Shown: positions 856-49,715 of the stretch, piece after piece
How positions within the stretch are numbered: position 1 is the stretch's first letter
Layout of the letters: every line of letters begins with the position of its first letter
Source of the DNA: a virus
Virus record (IMG/VR): IMGVR_UViG_3300035183_000096
Coordinates: 1-64,000 of that record
Direction: 5' to 3' (one strand)
DNA: 64,000 nucleotides
Made by a program: the position numbers and the translations under genes
Notes under the pieces: generated by a model
What the model saw: the letters and a program-made list of their open reading frames with translations, nothing else
Told to the model about the DNA's origin: nothing
Database searches by the model: none

Positions 856-857
856 CT

Positions 858-989
858 TGTTCGTAGGCTCAGTTGGTAGAGCGAGTTAGGTGTAAGTCGT
901 AAGACAACAGAAAAAGTACAAAAGAGCTTGACTCCACAATGGTTTTCTGGTACACTTAACTAAGTCGCGGGTTCGAGTCCCGCCGAACA
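858..989 (+). ncRNA. tRNA-shaped RNA with ~60-nt insertion in anticodon arm
   Basis: The outer parts are textbook tRNA: acceptor TGTTCG (858-863) with CGAACA (983-988), D arm GCTC-AGTTGGTA-GAGC (867-882), and T arm GCGGG-TTCGAGT-CCCGC (967-983). The anticodon stem AGTTA/TAACT instead continues as an 11-bp helix (884-894 with 951-961, one G-U). This leads into an inserted domain with two further helices: GTC-GTAA-GAC (896-905) and CAGAAAA/TTTTCTG (908-914 with 943-949). If the insertion were an intron between positions 37 and 38, GTA (Tyr) could be the anticodon, but the register is not settled. It is too short for a group I intron. Confidence 0.6.
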
Positions 990-1063
990 TAACCATAGTG
1001 GTTAGCCCACTCTGTCCCCAAGGCAGTAATTAAACGGGGTATGCTTGGGTAATCCCGATGTAA

Positions 1064-4163: not shown

Positions 4164-5729
4164 ATGGCTGACAATACAACGCTAAACACAATGACGGGCG
4201 GTGATGTTTACCGTTCTAAGGACCGTAGTGGTGTTAAAACAAGCATAATAGCCTTAGACTTAAACCCATCAGGCAGTGAGCAGTTACAAGAATCTGTTGC
4301 TCTTGGTGATGGAACCTCTAATCCTACACTTCCATCGTGGGGTGTGTTTATGCAGTTGTTTAACGGAACAACTTGGGATAGAGTAAGGGGGGATACGACT
4401 AATGGCCTTGATGTAGATGTTACTCGTTTACCTAGTTTACCCGCAGGTTCTAATGCAATAGGTAAGTTAGCAGCTAACGATGGTGTTGATATAGGCGATG
4501 TTACAATCAATAACCCTACACTAACAGTAGTTAATGCAGGCACATTTGTTGTTCAGGACAATCAGGTTTTAACGGATAATGCTCAATTCACCGATGGTTC
4601 AAATAAAGTATTTACAGCGGGTTATATTTACGATGAAGTAGCTGGCACCGCTCTAACTGAAAACGACGTTGCTGCTGCTAGAATAAATGCTAATAGGGCT
4701 ATTGTAGGTATTATTGAAGATGGTAGCACCCGTGCTAGATACGCCACAGTTACAGCATCTAACGCTCTAAAAGTAGATGGCTCTGCTGTTACACAACCAG
4801 TTTCTATAGCCGCCACCGTCACAGTGGATTCTGAATTACCTGCTGCTGCTGCTTTAGCTGATGCCGCTGCTAATCCAACAGCACCGCTTGTTGGTGACTG
4901 CTTACTTGTATATAACGGTAGCACTTGGGATAGAGCGAGAGAGGCTGTTGATGCCCTAGACTCAACTGGTACAGGTATTCTAAGTGCAGCTATGATAGCT
5001 CAGTTTGATAATGTTAGCCCAACACCTATTACTGAAAACCAATTCGGCAATGTAAGAATGTCAGCAAATAGGAGTTTGTTTGTTAACATTCGTGATGCTG
5101 CTGGTAACGAAAGAGGAGTAAACGTCAACGCATCTAATCAGATGAGCGTAAGCGTGGATAATACTGTAGCTGTTGGTAATGTAGCAACCATTGGTACATC
5201 TATAGTTCCAGGTACGGGTGCAACAAACTTAGGTAAGGCTGAAGATGCTGTTGCTATCACTGGTGATACCGGCGTATTTATCTTGGGTGTAAGACGCGAT
5301 ACTCCAGCAAGCAATTGTGCTAATGGTGACTATTGTGAAATACCAGTAAGTGGACAAGGCGCTGTGTGGGTAAGTATGACGCCTTCTACTGGTGGCGGTT
5401 GGTCAATAAGTAGAACTCTTTCTACTGCATCAACTAATGCAACTAGCATAAAAGCATCCGCAGGTATAGTTGGTGGGTGGTATATATTTAATACTAATAC
5501 ATCAAGAAGATATGTTAAGCTGTATAATAAGGCTTCATCACCTACGGTTGGTACTGATACACCAGCCATAACTATTCCGGTGCCAGCGGGCGGTGCTGTC
5601 AACGTAGAATTTACAAATGGTATAAATTTTGGAGCCGGAATTGCTATGGCTATGACGACCGGGGTTGCTGATAGTGATACCGGAGCTGTTGGTGCTAACG
5701 ACTTAATACTTAACCTCTTTTATAAGTAG
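4164..5729 (+). CDS. Large virion structural protein with repeated modules
   Basis: A 521-residue Ala/Thr/Val/Asn-rich protein. Two copies of a module with an NG(T/S)TWDR(V/A)R core occur near residues 66-74 and 251-259, and each follows a similar GD-x-N-P/LP lead-in, which suggests internal duplication. The C-terminal 170 residues (after about 345) look like a separate beta-sandwich ending FTNGINFGAGIAMAMTTG. Position and composition fit a tail fibre, appendage or other surface-exposed virion protein. Confidence 0.65.
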   Translation: MADNTTLNTMTGGDVYRSKDRSGVKTSIIALDLNPSGSEQLQESVALGDGTSNPTLPSWGVFMQLFNGTTWDRVRGDTTNGLDVDVTRLPSLPAGSNAIGKLAANDGVDIGDVTINNPTLTVVNAGTFVVQDNQVLTDNAQFTDGSNKVFTAGYIYDEVAGTALTENDVAAARINANRAIVGIIEDGSTRARYATVTASNALKVDGSAVTQPVSIAATVTVDSELPAAAALADAAANPTAPLVGDCLLVYNGSTWDRAREAVDALDSTGTGILSAAMIAQFDNVSPTPITENQFGNVRMSANRSLFVNIRDAAGNERGVNVNASNQMSVSVDNTVAVGNVATIGTSIVPGTGATNLGKAEDAVAITGDTGVFILGVRRDTPASNCANGDYCEIPVSGQGAVWVSMTPSTGGGWSISRTLSTASTNATSIKASAGIVGGWYIFNTNTSRRYVKLYNKASSPTVGTDTPAITIPVPAGGAVNVEFTNGINFGAGIAMAMTTGVADSDTGAVGANDLILNLFYK

Positions 5730-5737
5730 GATATGTC

Positions 5738-6463
5738 ATGGCTTTTGCAGTAGGGCGTAGTATTGCGTCAGCTAATCGTCAGGATGGAATATCAAATCCA
5801 TTCCCGCCAGAATGGGCATTTACCACTAGCGGTAACTTAAATGTGGGTGAGCTTGGCATACTTGTTCTTGCTGATGTTAATGATATAACATCCATAACGG
5901 ATGCCGCTGGAAATATATGGACAAAGATTGCTGAACACGCGAATTCTAATAACTCTGCTTACGCTGGTAGTATATGTTCAATATATTACACTATAGCCAG
6001 TAGCACATTACTATCCGGTGGTACTATTACTGTTATATATAATGGCAATGCTTCTGGTGGTAAAGCTGTCACTGGATTTGCTTTTACTCTAGCTAAAAGC
6101 ACTATAACTATCACTGGTATAAATACACTATCTGACGACGCCGCAGACCCTGGTTCTATAACATCTAATCCAAGTACAGGTAATGTAGAACACCTTTTTA
6201 TAAGAGGATGTGCTGGTGAGACAAATAGTACGATTTATACACCAAGCGCAAACTTTACTGCGTTTACACATACAAGTTCTCAATGTGCCGCTGATGTCGG
6301 CGGAACTGGACCAACAGCAGCTCGTGGTGAATATAGAATTGTAACAGCGTCTTCAAATAGTACAGACCCTAGTGCTGTGAGTGCAAATTGGGCAAGCATT
6401 ATGGTAGCTATAGATGAAGGAACAATAGTTAGAATGTTAGCATCTACAGGAGTAGGCAAGTAA
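5738..6463 (+). CDS. Virion/tail protein, beta-rich
   Basis: A 241-residue Ser/Thr/Gly/Asn-rich protein with no enzymatic motif. The layout (N-terminal AFAVGRSIAS, a middle VIYNGNASGGKAV, a C-terminal strand-rich IMVAIDEGT) resembles phage appendage proteins that carry a jelly-roll or Ig-like domain. It lies between the large structural protein and the repeat protein, and its TAA shares a base with the next ATG. Exact role unknown. Confidence 0.6.
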   Translation: MAFAVGRSIASANRQDGISNPFPPEWAFTTSGNLNVGELGILVLADVNDITSITDAAGNIWTKIAEHANSNNSAYAGSICSIYYTIASSTLLSGGTITVIYNGNASGGKAVTGFAFTLAKSTITITGINTLSDDAADPGSITSNPSTGNVEHLFIRGCAGETNSTIYTPSANFTAFTHTSSQCAADVGGTGPTAARGEYRIVTASSNSTDPSAVSANWASIMVAIDEGTIVRMLASTGVGK

Positions 6464-16587: not shown

Positions 16588-16616
16588 TTGACAGAGCGAG
16601 TTTCTTCTGCTACAAT
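16588..16616 (+). promoter_or_regulatory. Strong sigma-70-type promoter of the Ro60 gene
   Basis: TTGACA (16588-16593), a 17-base spacer and TACAAT (16611-16616), preceded by TTTTCTA. The promoter lies 49 bases before the start codon of the TROVE gene. Confidence 0.9.
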
Positions 16617-16665
16617 GTGTATGCGTTGAAGGCATTCACCAGTTCGAGCAGAGGAAAGCGATAAC

Positions 16666-18255
16666 ATGGCTAACAAGACTATTTTCGCTAGTCGGTCCGG
16701 TCGTCCTAACACTGTAAACAACGCTGGTGGCAGAGCTTACTCGCTAGAGGATAAGCACGCCTTAGCTCAACTCGTTGTTACAGGCTGTCTAAACGACACA
16801 TACTACACTAACGCCACAGAGCAATTGGACACCATCCTTAAGTTGGCTGGTAAGTGTGATGTTCCGTTCGTAGCCAAGGCCGCAGTGTATGGGCGTGTTT
16901 TTGGTAAGATGAAGGACACGCCTGCCCTTTTGCTTGCTCATTTAACCTCCAGGGGTTATGAAGGTGTAGAGTACACTAAGAAGATTTTCAACAAAGTCAT
17001 TACCAACACCAAGATGTTGCGTAACTTTTTCCAAATTGTTCGTAGTGGTAAGGTAGGCCGTAAGAACTTTGGTACGGCTATCAGTAGGCTAATGGCCAAC
17101 TGGCTAAGTCGAAATACTATGGATGAGTTGTTTGATGGAAGTGTCGGTAATAACCCAACTCTTGGTGATGTTATTAAGTTGTCCCACGTTAAGCCTAACA
17201 ACAAGGCTCGTGAAAACTTCCATAACTACCTACTTGGTAGAAAGTTCAATATTGAAGAGCTACCAGAGCGTATTCGTAACTATGAAAACTTCAAGAAGGG
17301 TTTGACGGACGTTTTACCAAACGTGCCATTCGACTTCTTGACAAGCCTAAGAAGGCTGACTGATGAGCATTGGAAGGAAATTGCTCGTAATGCTCCATTC
17401 AATATGACTAGAATGAATCTAAATACGTTCGCTCGCCACGGTGTCTTCAAGGATGACGAGTTGACGAAGTTGATTACAGACAGACTACGTAGCAGAGAGA
17501 ATGTAGCAAAGTTTAATGTATTTCCATATAGTATAATGACTTCGCTGAACAACATTGAAGGAGGTGTGCCTTCTATTATCATTGATGCGTTGCAAGATGC
17601 TATTGATTATAGCATCGAAAATGTGCCTGAGTTTGATGAAGATGTGGCTGTGTGTCTTGACTGCTCTGGAAGCATGAGTAGTCCTATTACTGGCTATCGT
17701 AAAGGTTCCACATCTAAGGTGTCTTGTCTTGATGTTGCTTCTTTGATAGCCGCAAGCATTGCTCGTAAGAACAGAAACACAATCATTATTCCATTTGGTA
17801 CTAAAGTATGTCTTTGGCACATAGGGGAATTTAACCCAAGTGATAGCGTGTGGACCAACTCTAATAAGTTGCGTGCTATTCAGGGCGGTGGAACCAATTG
17901 CTCTTCAGCCTTGAGATATATCAACGAAGATATGGCAGGCAAGAAGCCTAACCTAGTCATCTATGTATCCGACAACGAAAGTTGGCTGGATAGCGGACAC
18001 TATGGAAGATTTGGTGGTAGTGTTACTGCTACCATGGAAGAGTTCAGAAAGCTACAGAGTAAGTCTAAGGATGCCAAGATGGTGTGTATCGACCTTACCC
18101 CAAATACTACAACACAAGCTAAGGAAAATAAGGACATCCTTAATGTCGGTGGGTGGTCGGATGCTTGCTGGGACGTAATTGGTAAGTGGGTAAAGGGCGG
18201 AAACGATTTTGTCAAGACGATTGAAGAAATTGACCTTGATAGTTGCCCGACATAA
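16666..18255 (+). CDS. rsr: Ro60/Rsr ortholog (TROVE-vWA ring protein)
   Basis: A 529-residue protein of normal bacterial Rsr length. Residues about 15-320 form the HEAT-repeat TROVE ring (GGRAYSLEDKHALAQLVVTG near the start). Residues about 325-510 are a von Willebrand A domain with an intact MIDAS (D332-C-S334-G-S336) and later TN and DN motifs. Known relatives bind Y RNAs on the outside of the ring and misfolded RNA in its hole, and in Deinococcus they link to polynucleotide phosphorylase. A YrlA-type RNA follows directly, so the phage carries a complete Ro60 RNP pair with its own strong promoter. Confidence 0.95.
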   Translation: MANKTIFASRSGRPNTVNNAGGRAYSLEDKHALAQLVVTGCLNDTYYTNATEQLDTILKLAGKCDVPFVAKAAVYGRVFGKMKDTPALLLAHLTSRGYEGVEYTKKIFNKVITNTKMLRNFFQIVRSGKVGRKNFGTAISRLMANWLSRNTMDELFDGSVGNNPTLGDVIKLSHVKPNNKARENFHNYLLGRKFNIEELPERIRNYENFKKGLTDVLPNVPFDFLTSLRRLTDEHWKEIARNAPFNMTRMNLNTFARHGVFKDDELTKLITDRLRSRENVAKFNVFPYSIMTSLNNIEGGVPSIIIDALQDAIDYSIENVPEFDEDVAVCLDCSGSMSSPITGYRKGSTSKVSCLDVASLIAASIARKNRNTIIIPFGTKVCLWHIGEFNPSDSVWTNSNKLRAIQGGGTNCSSALRYINEDMAGKKPNLVIYVSDNESWLDSGHYGRFGGSVTATMEEFRKLQSKSKDAKMVCIDLTPNTTTQAKENKDILNVGGWSDACWDVIGKWVKGGNDFVKTIEEIDLDSCPT

Positions 18256-18272
18256 ACCGAAATAAATATATA

Positions 18273-18412
18273 GGGAAACGCTTCGGCAGGATTACATTCC
18301 ATATGAAGGAAGAGGTCCGGGTGCAAATCCCGGTACTGGTACTTTAAGTTAAACTATATACCAGTATAGCTTAAGAGTAGAGCGCTAAAACATCTTGCCA
18401 CCTTCTTTTCCC
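18273..18412 (+). ncRNA. YrlA-type Y RNA with permuted tRNA-like domain
   Basis: It lies 18 bases after the Ro60 stop. The base stem pairs GGGAAA (18273-18278) with TTTCCC (18407-18412) and GGCAGGAT (18285-18292) with ATCTTGCC (18392-18399). Inside is a tRNA-like domain in permuted order: T arm CCGGG-TGCAAAT-CCCGG (18317-18333), 3' acceptor strand TACTGGTA (18334-18341), a 17-nt closing loop, 5' acceptor strand TACCAGTA (18359-18366), then D arm GCTT-AAGAGTA-GAGC (18369-18383). The two acceptor strands are exact complements. A small hairpin TTCC/GGAA precedes the T arm. This is the design described for bacterial and phage YrlA RNAs, which mimic tRNA. Confidence 0.85.
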
Positions 18413-18431
18413 TTTAACAAACATCAAAACA

Positions 18432-18460
18432 ACCCCTCTGGTAATAGAGGGGTTTTTTTT
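18432..18460 (+). terminator. Terminator of the Ro60-Y RNA unit
   Basis: ACCCCTCT (18432-18439) pairs with AGAGGGGT (18446-18453) around GGTAAT, followed by a run of eight T. It probably defines the 3' end of the primary Y RNA transcript. Confidence 0.93.
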
Positions 18461-18506
18461 GTGTATTATATGGATATGCTACATTTTTCATTATGGAGAT
18501 AATACT

Positions 18507-19654: not shown

Positions 19655-19918
19655 ATGTTTGCATTTTTAATGAGTGTATGTTTATTTATGTTTGGTGGAG
19701 ACGGTCCTAAGCAAGGGCCGGTTATGGTTAATAACCAGAGAAACTATCATTATCGCCCAGCGATATTCTATGGTTTAGTTATTCCTGTTAGTTATCGGTC
19801 TAGCTATACAATAAACTACATTGGCAACATAGCTGTTATCAATGAATACAGGGTTGGTTACAATATGTATGGCGTACCTGTAGTAAATTACTATTATGTT
19901 CACTATAGATATAGGTGA
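19655..19918 (+). CDS. Secreted Tyr-rich peptide
   Basis: An 87-residue protein. ATG 19655 is preferred because GGAGG is then six bases away; ATG 19649 abuts it. Residues 1-15 form a hydrophobic signal (FAFLMSVCLFMFGG). The mature part is Tyr/Asn/Val-rich (INYIGNIAVINEYRVGYNMYG). It follows the exported gene at 19088 within an operon. Function unknown. Confidence 0.55.
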   Translation: MFAFLMSVCLFMFGGDGPKQGPVMVNNQRNYHYRPAIFYGLVIPVSYRSSYTINYIGNIAVINEYRVGYNMYGVPVVNYYYVHYRYR

Positions 19919-20643
19919 TAAATAGCAACAAAAAAACATGGGGTATTCAATTGGAAACGAAGCTATACCGAGTTGGTGGTGCTGTTAGAGACGCTCTTAT
20001 GGGTTTGAAGTCTAAAGATATTGACTTCGCGGTTGAGGCCGACAGCTATGAAACCATGAAAGCGTACATTCTTTCTAATGGTGGCACCATTTTTCTTGAA
20101 AAACCAGAATACTTTACGATTAGGGCGAAGTTGAACAAACAAGATGCCGACTTCGTTCTGTGTCGTAGGCCGGACTCTGTTCAAGTTGGCACCATCCTTG
20201 ATGACTTGGCTCGTCGTGACTTCACGATGAATGCTATTGCAATAAGAGAAAATGATTCTGAAGTCATTGACCCATTTAACGGTCTAAATGACATTAAGGA
20301 GCGGGTCATTCGTTGTGTTGGCAATCCATTCCATAGGTTTAGTGAAGACTCTTTACGTCTATTAAGGGCGTTACGCTTTGCTCTGACCAAGGGCTTTGCT
20401 TTAGACGCCTCTGTAGCACAATGTATGTGGAGTCCAGCATTGGTTATGGCTTTAGCGAATGTGTCGAAGGAACGTATTCGTGAAGAGTTGTATAAGTGTT
20501 TTAAGCACAATACTCTGCAAACCCTAACCATGTTGGAATCCTATCCTATGGTTCGTGATATGGTTTTTGACTCTAACATCATTTGGCTCAAACCTACGAT
20601 GGAGGATAATGGACATGAGCAAGAAAGAAGTGATGGTCGTTAG
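19915..20643 (+). CDS. cca: tRNA nucleotidyltransferase (CCA-adding type), head domain only
   Basis: A 242-residue class II polymerase-beta-type nucleotidyltransferase. Visible motifs are GGAVRD (21-26), the catalytic D35-x-D37, RRDFTMNAIA (100-109) and the neck motif EDSLRLLRALRFA (about 143-155). Family members are usually near 400 residues, so the C-terminal body and tail are missing or very short. None of the tRNAs in this window encodes CCA, which gives the enzyme a clear job. The GTG start overlaps the previous stop; a TTG at 19951 is another option. Confidence 0.85.
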   Translation: MINSNKKTWGIQLETKLYRVGGAVRDALMGLKSKDIDFAVEADSYETMKAYILSNGGTIFLEKPEYFTIRAKLNKQDADFVLCRRPDSVQVGTILDDLARRDFTMNAIAIRENDSEVIDPFNGLNDIKERVIRCVGNPFHRFSEDSLRLLRALRFALTKGFALDASVAQCMWSPALVMALANVSKERIREELYKCFKHNTLQTLTMLESYPMVRDMVFDSNIIWLKPTMEDNGHEQERSDGR

Positions 20644-24283: not shown

Positions 24284-24662
24284 AGCACTAAAGAGATGGT
24301 GGTCTAAAAAGAAGACGCCGAAAATAGTGATTACTATGCTTAATAAGGAAATCACTAAAATTGAGGTACAATGGCCTCATATAGATTATAAAGATAATCC
24401 AGACCTTAGAGCTTCTTTGATTATGACTATGGCTAGAACGATATTTACTATTGAACAGGGCATATTAACTCCATTTATTATAAACAGTATAGCTGTAGAG
24501 TCTAGTAAAATTGGTGATGAAGATTTTAGTGTTGGAGTACAGAACGCTCTAGCTAACTTACATCTAAATATAAACACCAAAAAGAATGTTTCGTCCGGCC
24601 CGATTGTTAAGCCAAATGAAGTATTCGACCTTCGTAGGATTGTGATGAAAGATGAGTATTAA
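24276..24662 (+). CDS. Hypothetical protein
   Basis: A 128-residue protein with a strongly basic N terminus (LKALKRWWSKKKTPK). ATG 24276 lies after GGTGGAGG and overlaps the previous gene by eight bases; the end overlaps the ThyX fusion by 11. No family recognised. Confidence 0.6.
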   Translation: MLKALKRWWSKKKTPKIVITMLNKEITKIEVQWPHIDYKDNPDLRASLIMTMARTIFTIEQGILTPFIINSIAVESSKIGDEDFSVGVQNALANLHLNINTKKNVSSGPIVKPNEVFDLRRIVMKDEY

Positions 24663-25860
24663 AAGAAGCCCTAAGAGAAGAAAAGCCTTACTTGATAAAC
24701 TATATGGAAATCAAAATGGTAAATGTTATTGGTGTCGAGTTGCTTTATGCACAGAAACTAGAGATAATGACAAGATAAAGGACAATACTGCAACATTTGA
24801 CCATAAAGTACCGAAAGCGTCCGGAGGTTCAGAAAAGGAAAGTAACATCGTATTGGCGTGTTACAAATGCAACAATCAGCGCGGTAATACATTAGCACCA
24901 CCACGCTTTAGAGAAAAAAACTATACTTCCCGAAGAATCAATGAAGCTGGCGAAGAGTTGTTAGACCTTTATTTTCCTGTTCTGGACTATGGATTTATCG
25001 CCTTGAAAGATTATATGGGCACAGATGCCTGTATAGAAGATGCTGCTAGAACTTCATATGGACATGGCACCAAGAAAAAATCAAGTACGTTTGGCCTTAT
25101 TCGCTACTTGATGCGTCATGAACATATGAGTCCATTTGAAATGGCCGAAGTTAAGTTTCATATAGGTATGCCTATCTTTGTCGCAAGACAGTGGGTAAGG
25201 CATAGAATGGCGAGCTTAAATGAATATAGTGGTAGATATAGCGTTATGCCACTTATGTTTTACACACCAGATAAACTAACTAGGCAGTCAAGTGGTAATA
25301 AGCAAGGAAGAAATGATAATGTTGCTGAACATCAAACCTATTTTCATTGGCAATTAGAGCGTAATCGTAAGCGCGGTGCAGGTCTTTATAATCTAATGAT
25401 TAACAATGATGTTAGTCGTGAATTGGCGAGGATAGACTTACCGTTATCTACTTACACATTTTGGTATTGGAAATGCGATATTCGTAATCTATTACACTTT
25501 ATAGGTTTGCGTTCAGATTCTCATGCACAAAAAGAGATTAGGGTGTATTCTGACATTATAGCGGCTATGATACAAAAGATGTTTCCATATACATTCTCAG
25601 CCTTTATTGATTATCATTTTGTGTCCACAACTTTTACAATTGAGGAAATGCGTCTAATGAGAAGTATAGTTTCAGGGAATCTAAATGATAAACAAATCGA
25701 CGCTTTACTATCTCACAGCGGCTTAGGAGAAGGAGAGAGAAGGGAGTTTAAGGAAAAACTGAATGTTAAAACTAGACCTACGTTCAACCTAGATTTTTCT
25801 CTTGCTAAAACCCCTGAGTATTTTGAGCATCTTATTCAAGAGTATGTTAGGGAGGCATAG
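24652..25860 (+). CDS. thyX: HNH nuclease-ThyX fusion (flavin-dependent thymidylate synthase)
   Basis: A 402-residue two-domain protein. Residues about 20-85 are an HNH module with zinc knuckles C25/C28 and C70/C73, DH at 50-51 and N65. Residues about 105-400 are a complete ThyX with RHR-x7-S at 183-193 (RHRMASLNEYS) and the surrounding RxxxRYS block. ThyX makes dTMP from dUMP using FAD and methylenetetrahydrofolate. Free-standing ThyX proteins are about 210-330 residues, so the HNH part is an addition. A frameshift does not explain it, since one frame runs through. Phage NrdJ, dUTPase and dNMP kinase feed the same pathway. Confidence 0.92.
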   Translation: MSIKRSPKRRKALLDKLYGNQNGKCYWCRVALCTETRDNDKIKDNTATFDHKVPKASGGSEKESNIVLACYKCNNQRGNTLAPPRFREKNYTSRRINEAGEELLDLYFPVLDYGFIALKDYMGTDACIEDAARTSYGHGTKKKSSTFGLIRYLMRHEHMSPFEMAEVKFHIGMPIFVARQWVRHRMASLNEYSGRYSVMPLMFYTPDKLTRQSSGNKQGRNDNVAEHQTYFHWQLERNRKRGAGLYNLMINNDVSRELARIDLPLSTYTFWYWKCDIRNLLHFIGLRSDSHAQKEIRVYSDIIAAMIQKMFPYTFSAFIDYHFVSTTFTIEEMRLMRSIVSGNLNDKQIDALLSHSGLGEGERREFKEKLNVKTRPTFNLDFSLAKTPEYFEHLIQEYVREA

Positions 25861-46868: not shown

Positions 46869-47547
46869 TATATTGGTGTTAGATTTTGAAACAGTTGGAT
46901 ACGCTCCTAAAGAGTCTATGAATCCTAATGTTTGTGACCCAGTACAAATTGCCGTCGTGCCTATTGATGGTAAGACTATGCAAGTAAAATATGATAAGTC
47001 TTTCTCTTCTATGATTAAGCCAAGTAAAAGTGTGGACCTTATAGATAAGGAAACCTTACAATGGCATTCAGAGAAGTTAAAAAAGTCTCCAGAGGAACTA
47101 AAAAAGGCCTGGAATGAAGCTCCGGTTTTAAGCGTTGTATGGAACTCTTTATTGTCTTATATAGACACGCATCGTACTAGTAAGACATCCTGGGGTTTGC
47201 CAATTCTGGCTGGACACAACATTAGAAGGTTTGATTGTATCATATTGGAACGCATACAACGAGAGCTTGGCCCGAAGGACAAGGCAATATTCCACGAACG
47301 TGAATTTATCGACACGATGAATTATTTATGGTTCTGGCTTGAAGATGATACTCGTGTAAAGTCGTATTCTCTTGATAATTTAAGAAAGTTTTTTGGAATG
47401 TCAGAAGATGGTGGGCATGAGGCTTTACAAGACTGTAAGGATTGTGCGGCTATATTTGCCAGATTTATGCGTCATCAACGCAATCAAGCTAAAAAGGTGA
47501 ATTTTGCCAATCAGTTTAAGGACTGGAAGGATAAGGGGCTAGAATGA
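46855..47547 (+). CDS. DnaQ-like 3'-5' exonuclease
   Basis: A 230-residue DEDDh exonuclease: VLDFETVG (8-15; D10, E12), AGHNIRRFD (about 118-126) and a late HEALQDCKD (about 193-201; His and Asp). It probably proofreads for the split polymerase, since its end overlaps the start of the second polymerase gene by four bases. Confidence 0.9.
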   Translation: MSNNNILVLDFETVGYAPKESMNPNVCDPVQIAVVPIDGKTMQVKYDKSFSSMIKPSKSVDLIDKETLQWHSEKLKKSPEELKKAWNEAPVLSVVWNSLLSYIDTHRTSKTSWGLPILAGHNIRRFDCIILERIQRELGPKDKAIFHEREFIDTMNYLWFWLEDDTRVKSYSLDNLRKFFGMSEDGGHEALQDCKDCAAIFARFMRHQRNQAKKVNFANQFKDWKDKGLE

Positions 47548-49715
47548 AACTTTATACGATGGATTGCGGATGTCAGTTTGAGGTTATAGAGGATAGAGGG
47601 GTTAACAAGACCCCAAGAATTAAGATAAATGTAGCAACCATCTATGATGAACTAAGACTTGAATGCCCAAGAACCATATCCCTTTTAGCTAGTGGATTAA
47701 CAAAGGGGGTATTTCAACTAGAAAGCCAACTTGGTCGTAATTGGGTTAAGAAACTAAAACCTGAAAATCTTGAGCATATGGCGGCTCTTGTTGCATTGTT
47801 AAGGCCTGGTTGTATATCAGGTGATACTCTTATATCAGTTAAGATGTATGATGGAGATTGGAAGAAGTTTACTATTAAAGAACTTTATGAGAAATGGCGA
47901 CGTGGGCATCTCAATTCTGAACATGGTATTGTATCATTAGATGAATCAAGTTGCTTGTTATTTAATAATAGAATTAAAAATATAATATATAGTGGACAAA
48001 AAAGAGTGTACAAAGTCAATATCAAGAATAGGAAAGAGGAACGTGTTAATGATAAGTTTTATACTCTTGAATGTACATATGACCATAAACTACTAACATT
48101 TGACAGAGGATGGATTCCTTTGTCAAAATTAAGACTTGGGGATAGAATAGCGGTTATAAGCAAAAGTAAGTATGTAAAAAATTTCAGAGACTTGTATAAG
48201 TACGAGAATTATACACAATGGGCCGAGTATGATGGATGTATTGATATTGGTGTCAAGGATACATATGATATAACTGTAAATGGTCCAAATCATAACTTTA
48301 TTGCTGGAAATGTTGTTGTGCATAACTGCCTTGAAGCTAAAGACGAGAATGGCGTGTCGATGACAGAACACTATTGTCGTAGGAAAAACTTCCAAGAAGA
48401 AACGACCGTGTTTCATAAAGCCATTGAGCCTATCCTTGCTCCAACTTATCAGGTTTTAACTTATCAAGAACAGGCTATGATTATAGCGGCTCGTGTTGCC
48501 GGGTTCAATCTTATGCAAGCCGATAACCTTCGTAAAGCCATGGGCAAGAAGTTACCGGAAGAGATGGCTAAAGTGAAAGTTATGTTTGTTGAAGGAGCCG
48601 CTAAACTTGGAGCATTAACTACAGAGGAAGCCGCCGAAATCTTTAGTTGGATTGAGAAGGCTCAGCGTTATTCTTTTAATAAACCGCACGCTATATGTTA
48701 TGGTAAGATTGGTCTTGTGACCGCGTACTTAAAGTCTCACTTTCCTATAGAGTTCTTCACATCATGGCTTACTTATGCTATGTATAAACAAAATCCGCAT
48801 GATGAAGTTAAGGAACTTGTTGAAGACGCTAAATTATTTGATGTGACCGTATTACCACCCGAAATTACAAGAATGGATATAGATTTTGCAACAGACCAAG
48901 AAAGTAAGATTTGGTTTGGGCTTGGTAATATTAAGGGTGTAGGACAATCGCAGATAAGCAAATTGAAAGATGTGGTTAGTGCCGCTGAAAATAAGCTAGG
49001 ACGTAAATTTTCTGAAATGAAGTGGTTTGAGATTATGAGTCATATCTTGGATAATCTTAACAGTGCTGCTTCTGAAATATTTATACTATCAGGTGCTTTG
49101 TCCGGCGTAGTCTTTCTGCAAAGAAGACGTATGTTAGAGGAATGGAAGGCCTGGTCTTTGCTGACTGATAAAGAACGTGAATGGATTAAGGCTAGAGAGT
49201 TTAATGATTTAAGTGAGGCTTTAAGTGCTGTTGGTAGAACAAAGAAGGAAGGTGGGGGTGCAGCTAATTTTAAGAGAGTAGAAATTATACAAGGCACAAA
49301 GAAAATTTTGGATAATCCAGCTACGCCTCTAGTAGATGATTCTCGTTGGCTTGTCTGGCACGAAACTAATTTGCTTGGCATACCTTTAACTGCTAGCGTG
49401 TTAGATGGTAAGGATACAGAGTATGCTACAAATGCCACTTGCAAAGATGTACTTAATGGAAAGAAGGGTCCAATTACATTAGCCGCCGAAGTACGTTCTT
49501 GTAGAGAAATAAAGATTAAGAATGGCAAAAACATTGGTCGTAAGATGGCGTTTGTTAGTTTGGCTGACCCTACTTGCGTGATAGATAGTGTGGTTATGTG
49601 GTGTAACGAGTATGAAACACAAGGCGGATTACTTGTTGAGGGTAACACACTGATAGTCCACGGTGAAGCGGATAAAAAAGGAACTTTCGCTATACGAAAA
49701 GCGGTTCAAATTTGA
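47544..49715 (+). CDS. dnaE: DNA polymerase III alpha, C-terminal fragment with intein
   Basis: 723 residues as encoded, 551 after splicing. Residues 1-89 begin at the fingers (GVFQLES, 56-62; ALVALLRPG, 81-89). Residues 90-261 are an intein, and the polymerase resumes at C262 with YQEQAMIIAARVAGF, RKAMGKKLPEEMAK and SFNKPHAICYG. Then come a helix-hairpin-helix-like part (LGNIKGVGQSQISKL) and a C-terminal OB-type domain. With the N fragment (652) the sum is close to a normal DnaE. It overlaps the exonuclease gene. Confidence 0.93.
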   Translation: MKLYTMDCGCQFEVIEDRGVNKTPRIKINVATIYDELRLECPRTISLLASGLTKGVFQLESQLGRNWVKKLKPENLEHMAALVALLRPGCISGDTLISVKMYDGDWKKFTIKELYEKWRRGHLNSEHGIVSLDESSCLLFNNRIKNIIYSGQKRVYKVNIKNRKEERVNDKFYTLECTYDHKLLTFDRGWIPLSKLRLGDRIAVISKSKYVKNFRDLYKYENYTQWAEYDGCIDIGVKDTYDITVNGPNHNFIAGNVVVHNCLEAKDENGVSMTEHYCRRKNFQEETTVFHKAIEPILAPTYQVLTYQEQAMIIAARVAGFNLMQADNLRKAMGKKLPEEMAKVKVMFVEGAAKLGALTTEEAAEIFSWIEKAQRYSFNKPHAICYGKIGLVTAYLKSHFPIEFFTSWLTYAMYKQNPHDEVKELVEDAKLFDVTVLPPEITRMDIDFATDQESKIWFGLGNIKGVGQSQISKLKDVVSAAENKLGRKFSEMKWFEIMSHILDNLNSAASEIFILSGALSGVVFLQRRRMLEEWKAWSLLTDKEREWIKAREFNDLSEALSAVGRTKKEGGGAANFKRVEIIQGTKKILDNPATPLVDDSRWLVWHETNLLGIPLTASVLDGKDTEYATNATCKDVLNGKKGPITLAAEVRSCREIKIKNGKNIGRKMAFVSLADPTCVIDSVVMWCNEYETQGGLLVEGNTLIVHGEADKKGTFAIRKAVQI
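47811..48326 (+). other. Mini-intein inside polymerase fragment 2
   Basis: 172 residues from Cys90 to Asn261, followed by Cys262 as the +1 nucleophile. Block A is CISGDTLISV, block B is TLECTYDHKLL (T178-x-x-H181), and blocks F/G are DTYDITVNGPNHNFIAGNVVVHN. All self-splicing residues (Cys1, Thr-x-x-His, penultimate His, terminal Asn, +1 Cys) are there. No homing endonuclease (LAGLIDADG or HNH) is present. The site, right after ALVALLRPG, differs from the cyanobacterial split-DnaE site, which lies at the FNKxH motif. Confidence 0.95.

Follow-up and report, generated by a model that had tools for sequence, protein, structure and literature searches.

A phage-borne Ro60 (Rsr)-YrlA pair with G55 and A18 at the elbow of its tRNA-like RNA

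Chen and colleagues are said to have described, in 2014, Rsr/YrlA pairs in bacteria and phages. A mechanism has been described for Deinococcus, where Rsr holds the stem of a Y RNA whose tRNA-like module recruits PNPase for the decay of structured RNA (PMC8394870, PMC8058203), a link between Rsr, Y RNA and PNPase that is also drawn in PMC7790460. TROVE proteins occur in jumbo phages too (PMC7824862), and a phage Ro60 with a solved structure is available from the Thermus phage phiLo (PDB 9L5Y). Such pairs are already published from both bacteria and phages; the one analysed here is a distant phage branch, and the Rsr/YrlA family gains that branch. It lies in the window, the first 64 kb of a virus record of 126,592 bases (126.6 kb).

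The rsr-YrlA unit and its protein

The record is that of a tailed phage, encoding the terminase large subunit, portal, tape measure, DnaB, RecA and SSB. Together with protein and RNA homology, the terminase, portal and tape measure genes bear out the original prediction of a phage carrying Rsr and a permuted YrlA-type RNA. Read from the sequence, a promoter, rsr, the YrlA gene and a terminator are a single operon-like unit, a phage-borne Ro60 (Rsr)-YrlA pair:

16588-16616, + strand: sigma-70-like promoter before rsr, TTGACA, 17 nt, TACAAT, with a TG-extended -10 (consensus match only)
16666-18255, + strand: rsr, Ro60/TROVE protein of 529 aa, helical-repeat ring and vWA domain with intact MIDAS residues
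18272-18415, + strand: YrlA-type Y RNA gene, from model R1 built without the window and from covariation
18431-18461, + strand: strong intrinsic terminator after the YrlA gene, closing the unit

The consensus promoter that had been assigned to rsr itself, 50 bases upstream of the gene, is plausible as a consensus match: the window has nine sites that match at 11 of 12 positions, every one of them on the + strand, against 3.35 expected with both strands summed. A T4-late-like promoter was also considered before YrlA, where AATAAATATA lies at 18261; the same sequence occurs once more, at 136, and there is no case for such a promoter.

The rsr ORF matches PHROG 850 (2e-35, residues 15-505) and passes the cut-off of Pfam vWA_Ro60 (PF25045), and phmmer is in agreement; the Pfam TROVE model PF05731 stays below significance on this ORF, unlike vWA_Ro60, PHROG 850 and the fold. 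The MIDAS residues of the DxSxS...T...D pattern (D332, S334, S336, T410 and D436) are invariant across 26 Rsr proteins including this one. An AlphaFold model (26 sequences; pLDDT 82.9, pTM 0.82) finds only Ro60 structures as its best PDB matches (TM 0.59-0.75), among them 1yvp, 9nep, 2i91, 9kop, 2nvo from Deinococcus radiodurans, and 9l5y from phage phiLo, the last at 19% structural identity. With its modelled ring and vWA fold and its metal site, the protein is a Ro60/TROVE (Rsr) protein, and it is predicted to bind a Y RNA.

Identity to other phage and bacterial Rsr proteins is about 41-51%. The closest annotated phage protein is the TROVE protein of Myxococcus phage Mx1 (OR576727), at 43.5% identity over 99% of the length by tblastn. 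In the Rsr tree the window protein groups with that of phage L013 (support 90, no starred set; a weak grouping) and apart from planctomycete Rsr. The planctomycete host once proposed for this phage therefore falls away: a planctomycete origin of Rsr finds no support in the tree, and no gene tested points to Planctomycetota. Relatives in viral contigs were found neither by a single-protein scan nor by a scan with the phage DNA polymerase, and no phage matched the first 25 kb by megablast.

Anatomy and comparative support of the YrlA-type RNA

The RNA begins 16-17 nt past the rsr stop codon. Its parts, all on the + strand, are laid out as had been described, with T arm, acceptor stem and D arm in permuted order, exactly complementary acceptor strands and a 17-nt loop:

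18272-18277, + strand: base stem, 5' strand AGGGAA (R1, covariation)
18285-18292, + strand: second Y stem, 5' strand GGCAGGAU, then a conserved UACAU motif
18317-18333, + strand: T arm, loop UGCAAAU (G at position 55)
18334-18341, + strand: acceptor stem 3' half UACUGGUA, ahead of the 5' half
18342-18358, + strand: 17-nt loop closing the permuted acceptor stem
18359-18366, + strand: acceptor stem 5' half UACCAGUA, exact 8-bp complement of the 3' half
18369-18383, + strand: D arm, loop AAGAGUA (A at position 18, G at 19)
18392-18399, + strand: second Y stem, 3' strand AUCUUGCC
18408-18413, + strand: base stem, 3' strand UUCCCU (R1, covariation)

The order of T arm, acceptor 3' half, loop, acceptor 5' half and D arm matches that of permuted tRNA genes. 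On such a reading the window RNA would be circularised and cut within its 17-nt loop to give a real tRNA, and 13 of 151 YrlAs do have CCA directly after the discriminator position. We nevertheless regard a functional permuted tRNA gene as extremely improbable here: there is no anticodon arm with a 7-nt loop, a long Y stem made by the RNA ends is conserved in 49 sequences, and the window copy encodes no CCA (its loop starts ACTT). The acceptor loop is long beside the 3 nt of the Rfam model; by our own measure, 19 of 151 YrlAs have loops of at least 17 nt, which rules out loop length as a novelty.

Folding of the single sequence sustains one part of this anatomy and not the other. RNAfold gives the T arm, base stem and second stem pair probabilities of 0.94-0.997, but the acceptor and D arms only ~0.13 and ~0.11. 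In that acceptor/D region it prefers an alternative fold, with a minimum free energy of -40.4 kcal/mol against -38.8 for the best fold that keeps the cloverleaf, a gap of 1.6 in energies that leave tertiary contacts out. Support for the acceptor and D arms is comparative, coming from aligned sequences and not from single-sequence folding.

A YrlA covariance model had been proposed as a check on the locus; that of Rfam, RF02553 (threshold 69 bits), leaves 18273-18412 unmatched, as it does most relatives tested. A covariance test was therefore built anew. An alignment-based scan found 55 phage loci with Rsr. Next to many of these the module was picked up by a scanner for the permuted-tRNA pattern, whose background was five matches in 1.49 Mb of shuffled sequence. 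An exact T-arm pattern scan was discarded, its matches on nine contigs including none with a convincing acceptor partner. R1 is a covariance model from 19 YrlA RNAs of other phages, the window excluded; RNAalifold on these 19 yields 23 pairs, 20 of them with compensatory change. Run over the 64 kb, R1 ranks 18272-18415 first (63.6 bits, E=5e-13). Its best two matches in the right half of the genome overlap tRNAs, and the third is too weak (E=0.35).

Covariation of the base and acceptor stems in homologous loci, on which the prediction had been made to stand or fall beforehand, proves strong. Across 49 aligned YrlAs, 97.9% of structure cells are paired, and sliding the partners lowers this to 38-67%; the same control takes the covariation score from 0.79 down to 0.09-0.16. 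Compensatory changes occur in 20 of 22 pairs. All six base-stem pairs show changes on both sides, with 96.9% of cells paired, and the T arm, acceptor and D arm helices, in their permuted order, are 95.9-100% paired. This alignment was fitted to R1, which favours the structure; alignment A2, made without R1, agrees.

The reach of R1 extends well beyond this phage. It detects the enterobacterial (Salmonella-type) YrlA (L004 954-1069, E=1e-11), YrlAs beside bacterial Rsr in many phyla, and full-length YrlAs (E <=1e-5, at least 100 nt) at 21 of the 55 phage Rsr loci within the stretch examined. In ten Rsr loci RF02553 passes only three RNAs where R1 reports ~20; some R1 matches are RNAs that RF02553 or the YrlB model RF02565 recognises. 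Among the YrlAs that Rfam misses is an unannotated one in Mx1 (OR576727.2 45170-45295, L177 5170-5295; E=4e-13), which may permit a laboratory test; it lies ~11 kb before the protein gene, whereas the window YrlA directly follows rsr. Taken together, identification of the locus as Ro60/Rsr-YrlA is, on sequence evidence, close to certain.

Salmonella-type rsr-yrlBA-rtcBA is one of the nearest known systems. Both systems run from rsr to Y RNAs, both have the permuted T-acceptor-D module and the base stem, and R1 finds both. Unlike the Salmonella-type operon, the window unit has no adjoining rtcBA, and its probable mini Y RNA is ~15 kb away. Two records labelled as clones of Escherichia and Salmonella phages (L004 and L005; OR845705 and OR851267) carry rsr, Y RNA and an rtcB-like ORF arranged as on enterobacterial chromosomes, and are therefore probably host contamination.

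The 55/18 elbow in YrlA and phage tRNAs

At the tRNA elbow U55, as Psi55, touches G18, and reviews term Psi55 universally conserved (PMC7912444, PMC4810234). Salmonella-type YrlA has U55/G18; the window YrlA has G55 and A18 in their place. Serving as a TruB substrate through U55 is a reported property of YrlA rather than a defining one, and the window RNA, with G at position 55, does not share it: its pseudouridine-55 site reads as removed.

The two positions change together. Among 141 YrlAs with a clear core, eight have G55, seven of these with A18, while A18 occurs in 2 of 133 with U55 (Fisher p=1.5e-9, a value that does not allow for kinship of the sequences). Mapped on the Rsr tree, the G55 label changes six times, with only two independent pairs on starred branches. 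The 55/18 double change separates two sister phages, L022 and L055, whose arms are otherwise alike. The covariation of positions 55 and 18 provides independent evolutionary evidence that the T loop and D loop of YrlA form a tRNA elbow.

A paired elbow change also bears on whether rsr and YrlA are functionless remnants in this phage. The R1 score of the window YrlA, in the lower part of a range that reaches 124.7 bits, would fit such a relic. Yet the 529-aa ORF is intact with its MIDAS residues, the 8-bp acceptor complement is exact and the elbow change is paired, and promoter and terminator are both in place, making the relic reading very unlikely.

The same double change appears in tRNAs of this phage: Lys-UUU (691-762), Val-UAC (1800-1872) and Leu-UAA (~102.67 kb; L076 18667-18739), three of the six that a strict tRNA scanner accepts. 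ARAGORN misses the Lys and Val genes. With the same scanner, G55 is found in 5 of 102 tRNAs from the other phage Rsr loci and in 2 of 78 from bacterial Rsr loci, with none in 1.6 Mb of shuffled sequence. Eight of the ten G55 tRNAs from phage and bacterial Rsr loci pair G55 with A18. Because G55 tracks A18 across YrlAs and tRNAs, the 55:18 contact in YrlA appears to be under selection, and this phage has what reads as an alternative 55:18 pair in its mimic and some of its tRNAs. As far as a non-exhaustive search goes, the joint occurrence of G55 and A18 at the elbow of YrlA and of phage tRNAs is new.

Another Rsr phage with a G55 YrlA, L019, has three G55 tRNAs (2791-2861, 5119-5193 and 6142-6214, anticodons TCC, TGG and TTG). 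Coupling of G55 YrlA to G55 tRNAs nonetheless fails as a rule: the L055 phage has a G55 YrlA with 16 U55 tRNAs and no G55 tRNA. In the 20 kb of Mx1 examined, there are 22 U55 tRNA models and none with G55.

It is doubtful, though conceivable, that the elbow has been re-coded jointly in the tRNA mimic and part of the phage tRNA set, from U55:G18 to G55:A18, with loss of the Psi55 and G18-methylation sites. If the change is selected, YrlA and the phage tRNAs could evade host factors for which the elbow is a recognition or modification site; alternatively, a phage-specific elbow-reading effector could be loaded onto the Ro60 particle. G55/A18 in any case poses a testable question, namely how important Psi55 and Gm18 are for YrlA and phage tRNAs.

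Possible roles of the particle and neighbouring RNA genes

The phage brings further RNA genes of its own. Both the tRNA set and the CCA enzyme that had been suggested as company for the particle are real, the genome holding about a dozen tRNAs, and a probable second Y RNA lies within the tRNA cluster:

1718-1784, + strand: probable mini Y RNA without the tRNA-like module (R1 19.3 bits, E=0.011)
19915-20643, + strand: tRNA nucleotidyltransferase (CCA-adding/polyA polymerase head), possible partner (PF01743 7e-24; phrog_2244 2e-48)

The probable mini Y RNA forms a long stem (fold z -3.0; none of 200 shuffles equally stable) and carries the conserved GGACUACAU motif. Mini Y RNAs also adjoin many other Rsr genes, and at four phage Rsr loci (L030, L061, L033 and L055) several Y RNAs, both full-length and mini, stand in arrays. 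An RNA ligase gene lies at 105.6-106.6 kb of the record, and an AAA_33 P-loop kinase-like protein is also encoded.

By analogy with studied relatives, Rsr very probably forms a complex with YrlA in this phage. The best overall explanation of the locus, a phage-borne Ro60 (Rsr)-YrlA pair, is held with similarly high confidence. The particle is predicted to act as a tether for a tRNA-recognising effector: the Rsr ring would grip the Y stem while the tRNA-like module holds the effector. Of the candidates an exoribonuclease is our first choice, tentatively put forward, with host PNPase as an example, following the Deinococcus particle (RYPER) that serves as the mechanistic model; PNPase binding by the phage RNA is a prediction, and no phage-encoded PNPase was found among the ORFs scanned, part of the total. 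During infection such a particle may steer the decay or quality control of structured RNA, including tRNA fragments, and could act alongside the tRNAs, CCA enzyme and RNA ligase that the phage itself encodes.

Those same genes, with the P-loop kinase-like protein, can also be read as a tRNA decoy or repair platform, our next choice and a rather unlikely one. Here Rsr would be the scaffold, and the module would either compete for host tRNA-cleaving antiphage nucleases or deliver damaged tRNAs to the ligase and the CCA enzyme of the phage. Precedents exist: Salmonella rsr-yrlBA sits with rtcBA and is induced by tRNA fragments, and its YrlA has been proposed as a competitive inhibitor of an anticodon nuclease, tRNA decay being the other role proposed (PMC7790460), while the TROVE proteins of jumbo phages have been read as RNA-repair partners (PMC7824862). 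However, the module has no anticodon loop, so a decoy is possible only for enzymes that recognise the elbow or the acceptor, and the RNA ligase lies ~87 kb off, outside the rsr-YrlA unit.

Several other features of the genome stand apart from these readings. A near-identical tRNA gene pair (783-856 and 1131-1205) is called Ile with anticodon TAT. At 857-991 (+ strand of the window) lies a tRNA-like RNA that keeps the normal succession of acceptor, D arm and T arm; its anticodon arm consists of an 11-bp stem and a loop of 56 nt. Its fold has a z of -3.3, and the Rfam tRNA model scores it at 37 bits with an insertion of 68 nt. It may be an intron-like insertion or a regulatory tRNA-like RNA; the Rsr loci examined hold no second tRNA with such an expanded anticodon arm. 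A match to the type-P5 twister ribozyme of Rfam lies at L076 14927-15004 (40.6 bits, threshold 37.6). The ribonucleotide reductase of the record resembles those annotated as B12-dependent. DNA polymerase III alpha is divided, its second part (window 47544-49715) containing an intein splicing domain, and a single ORF at 24652-25860 joins an HNH endonuclease to a ThyX (Thy1) domain, possibly a homing-type insertion or a fusion.
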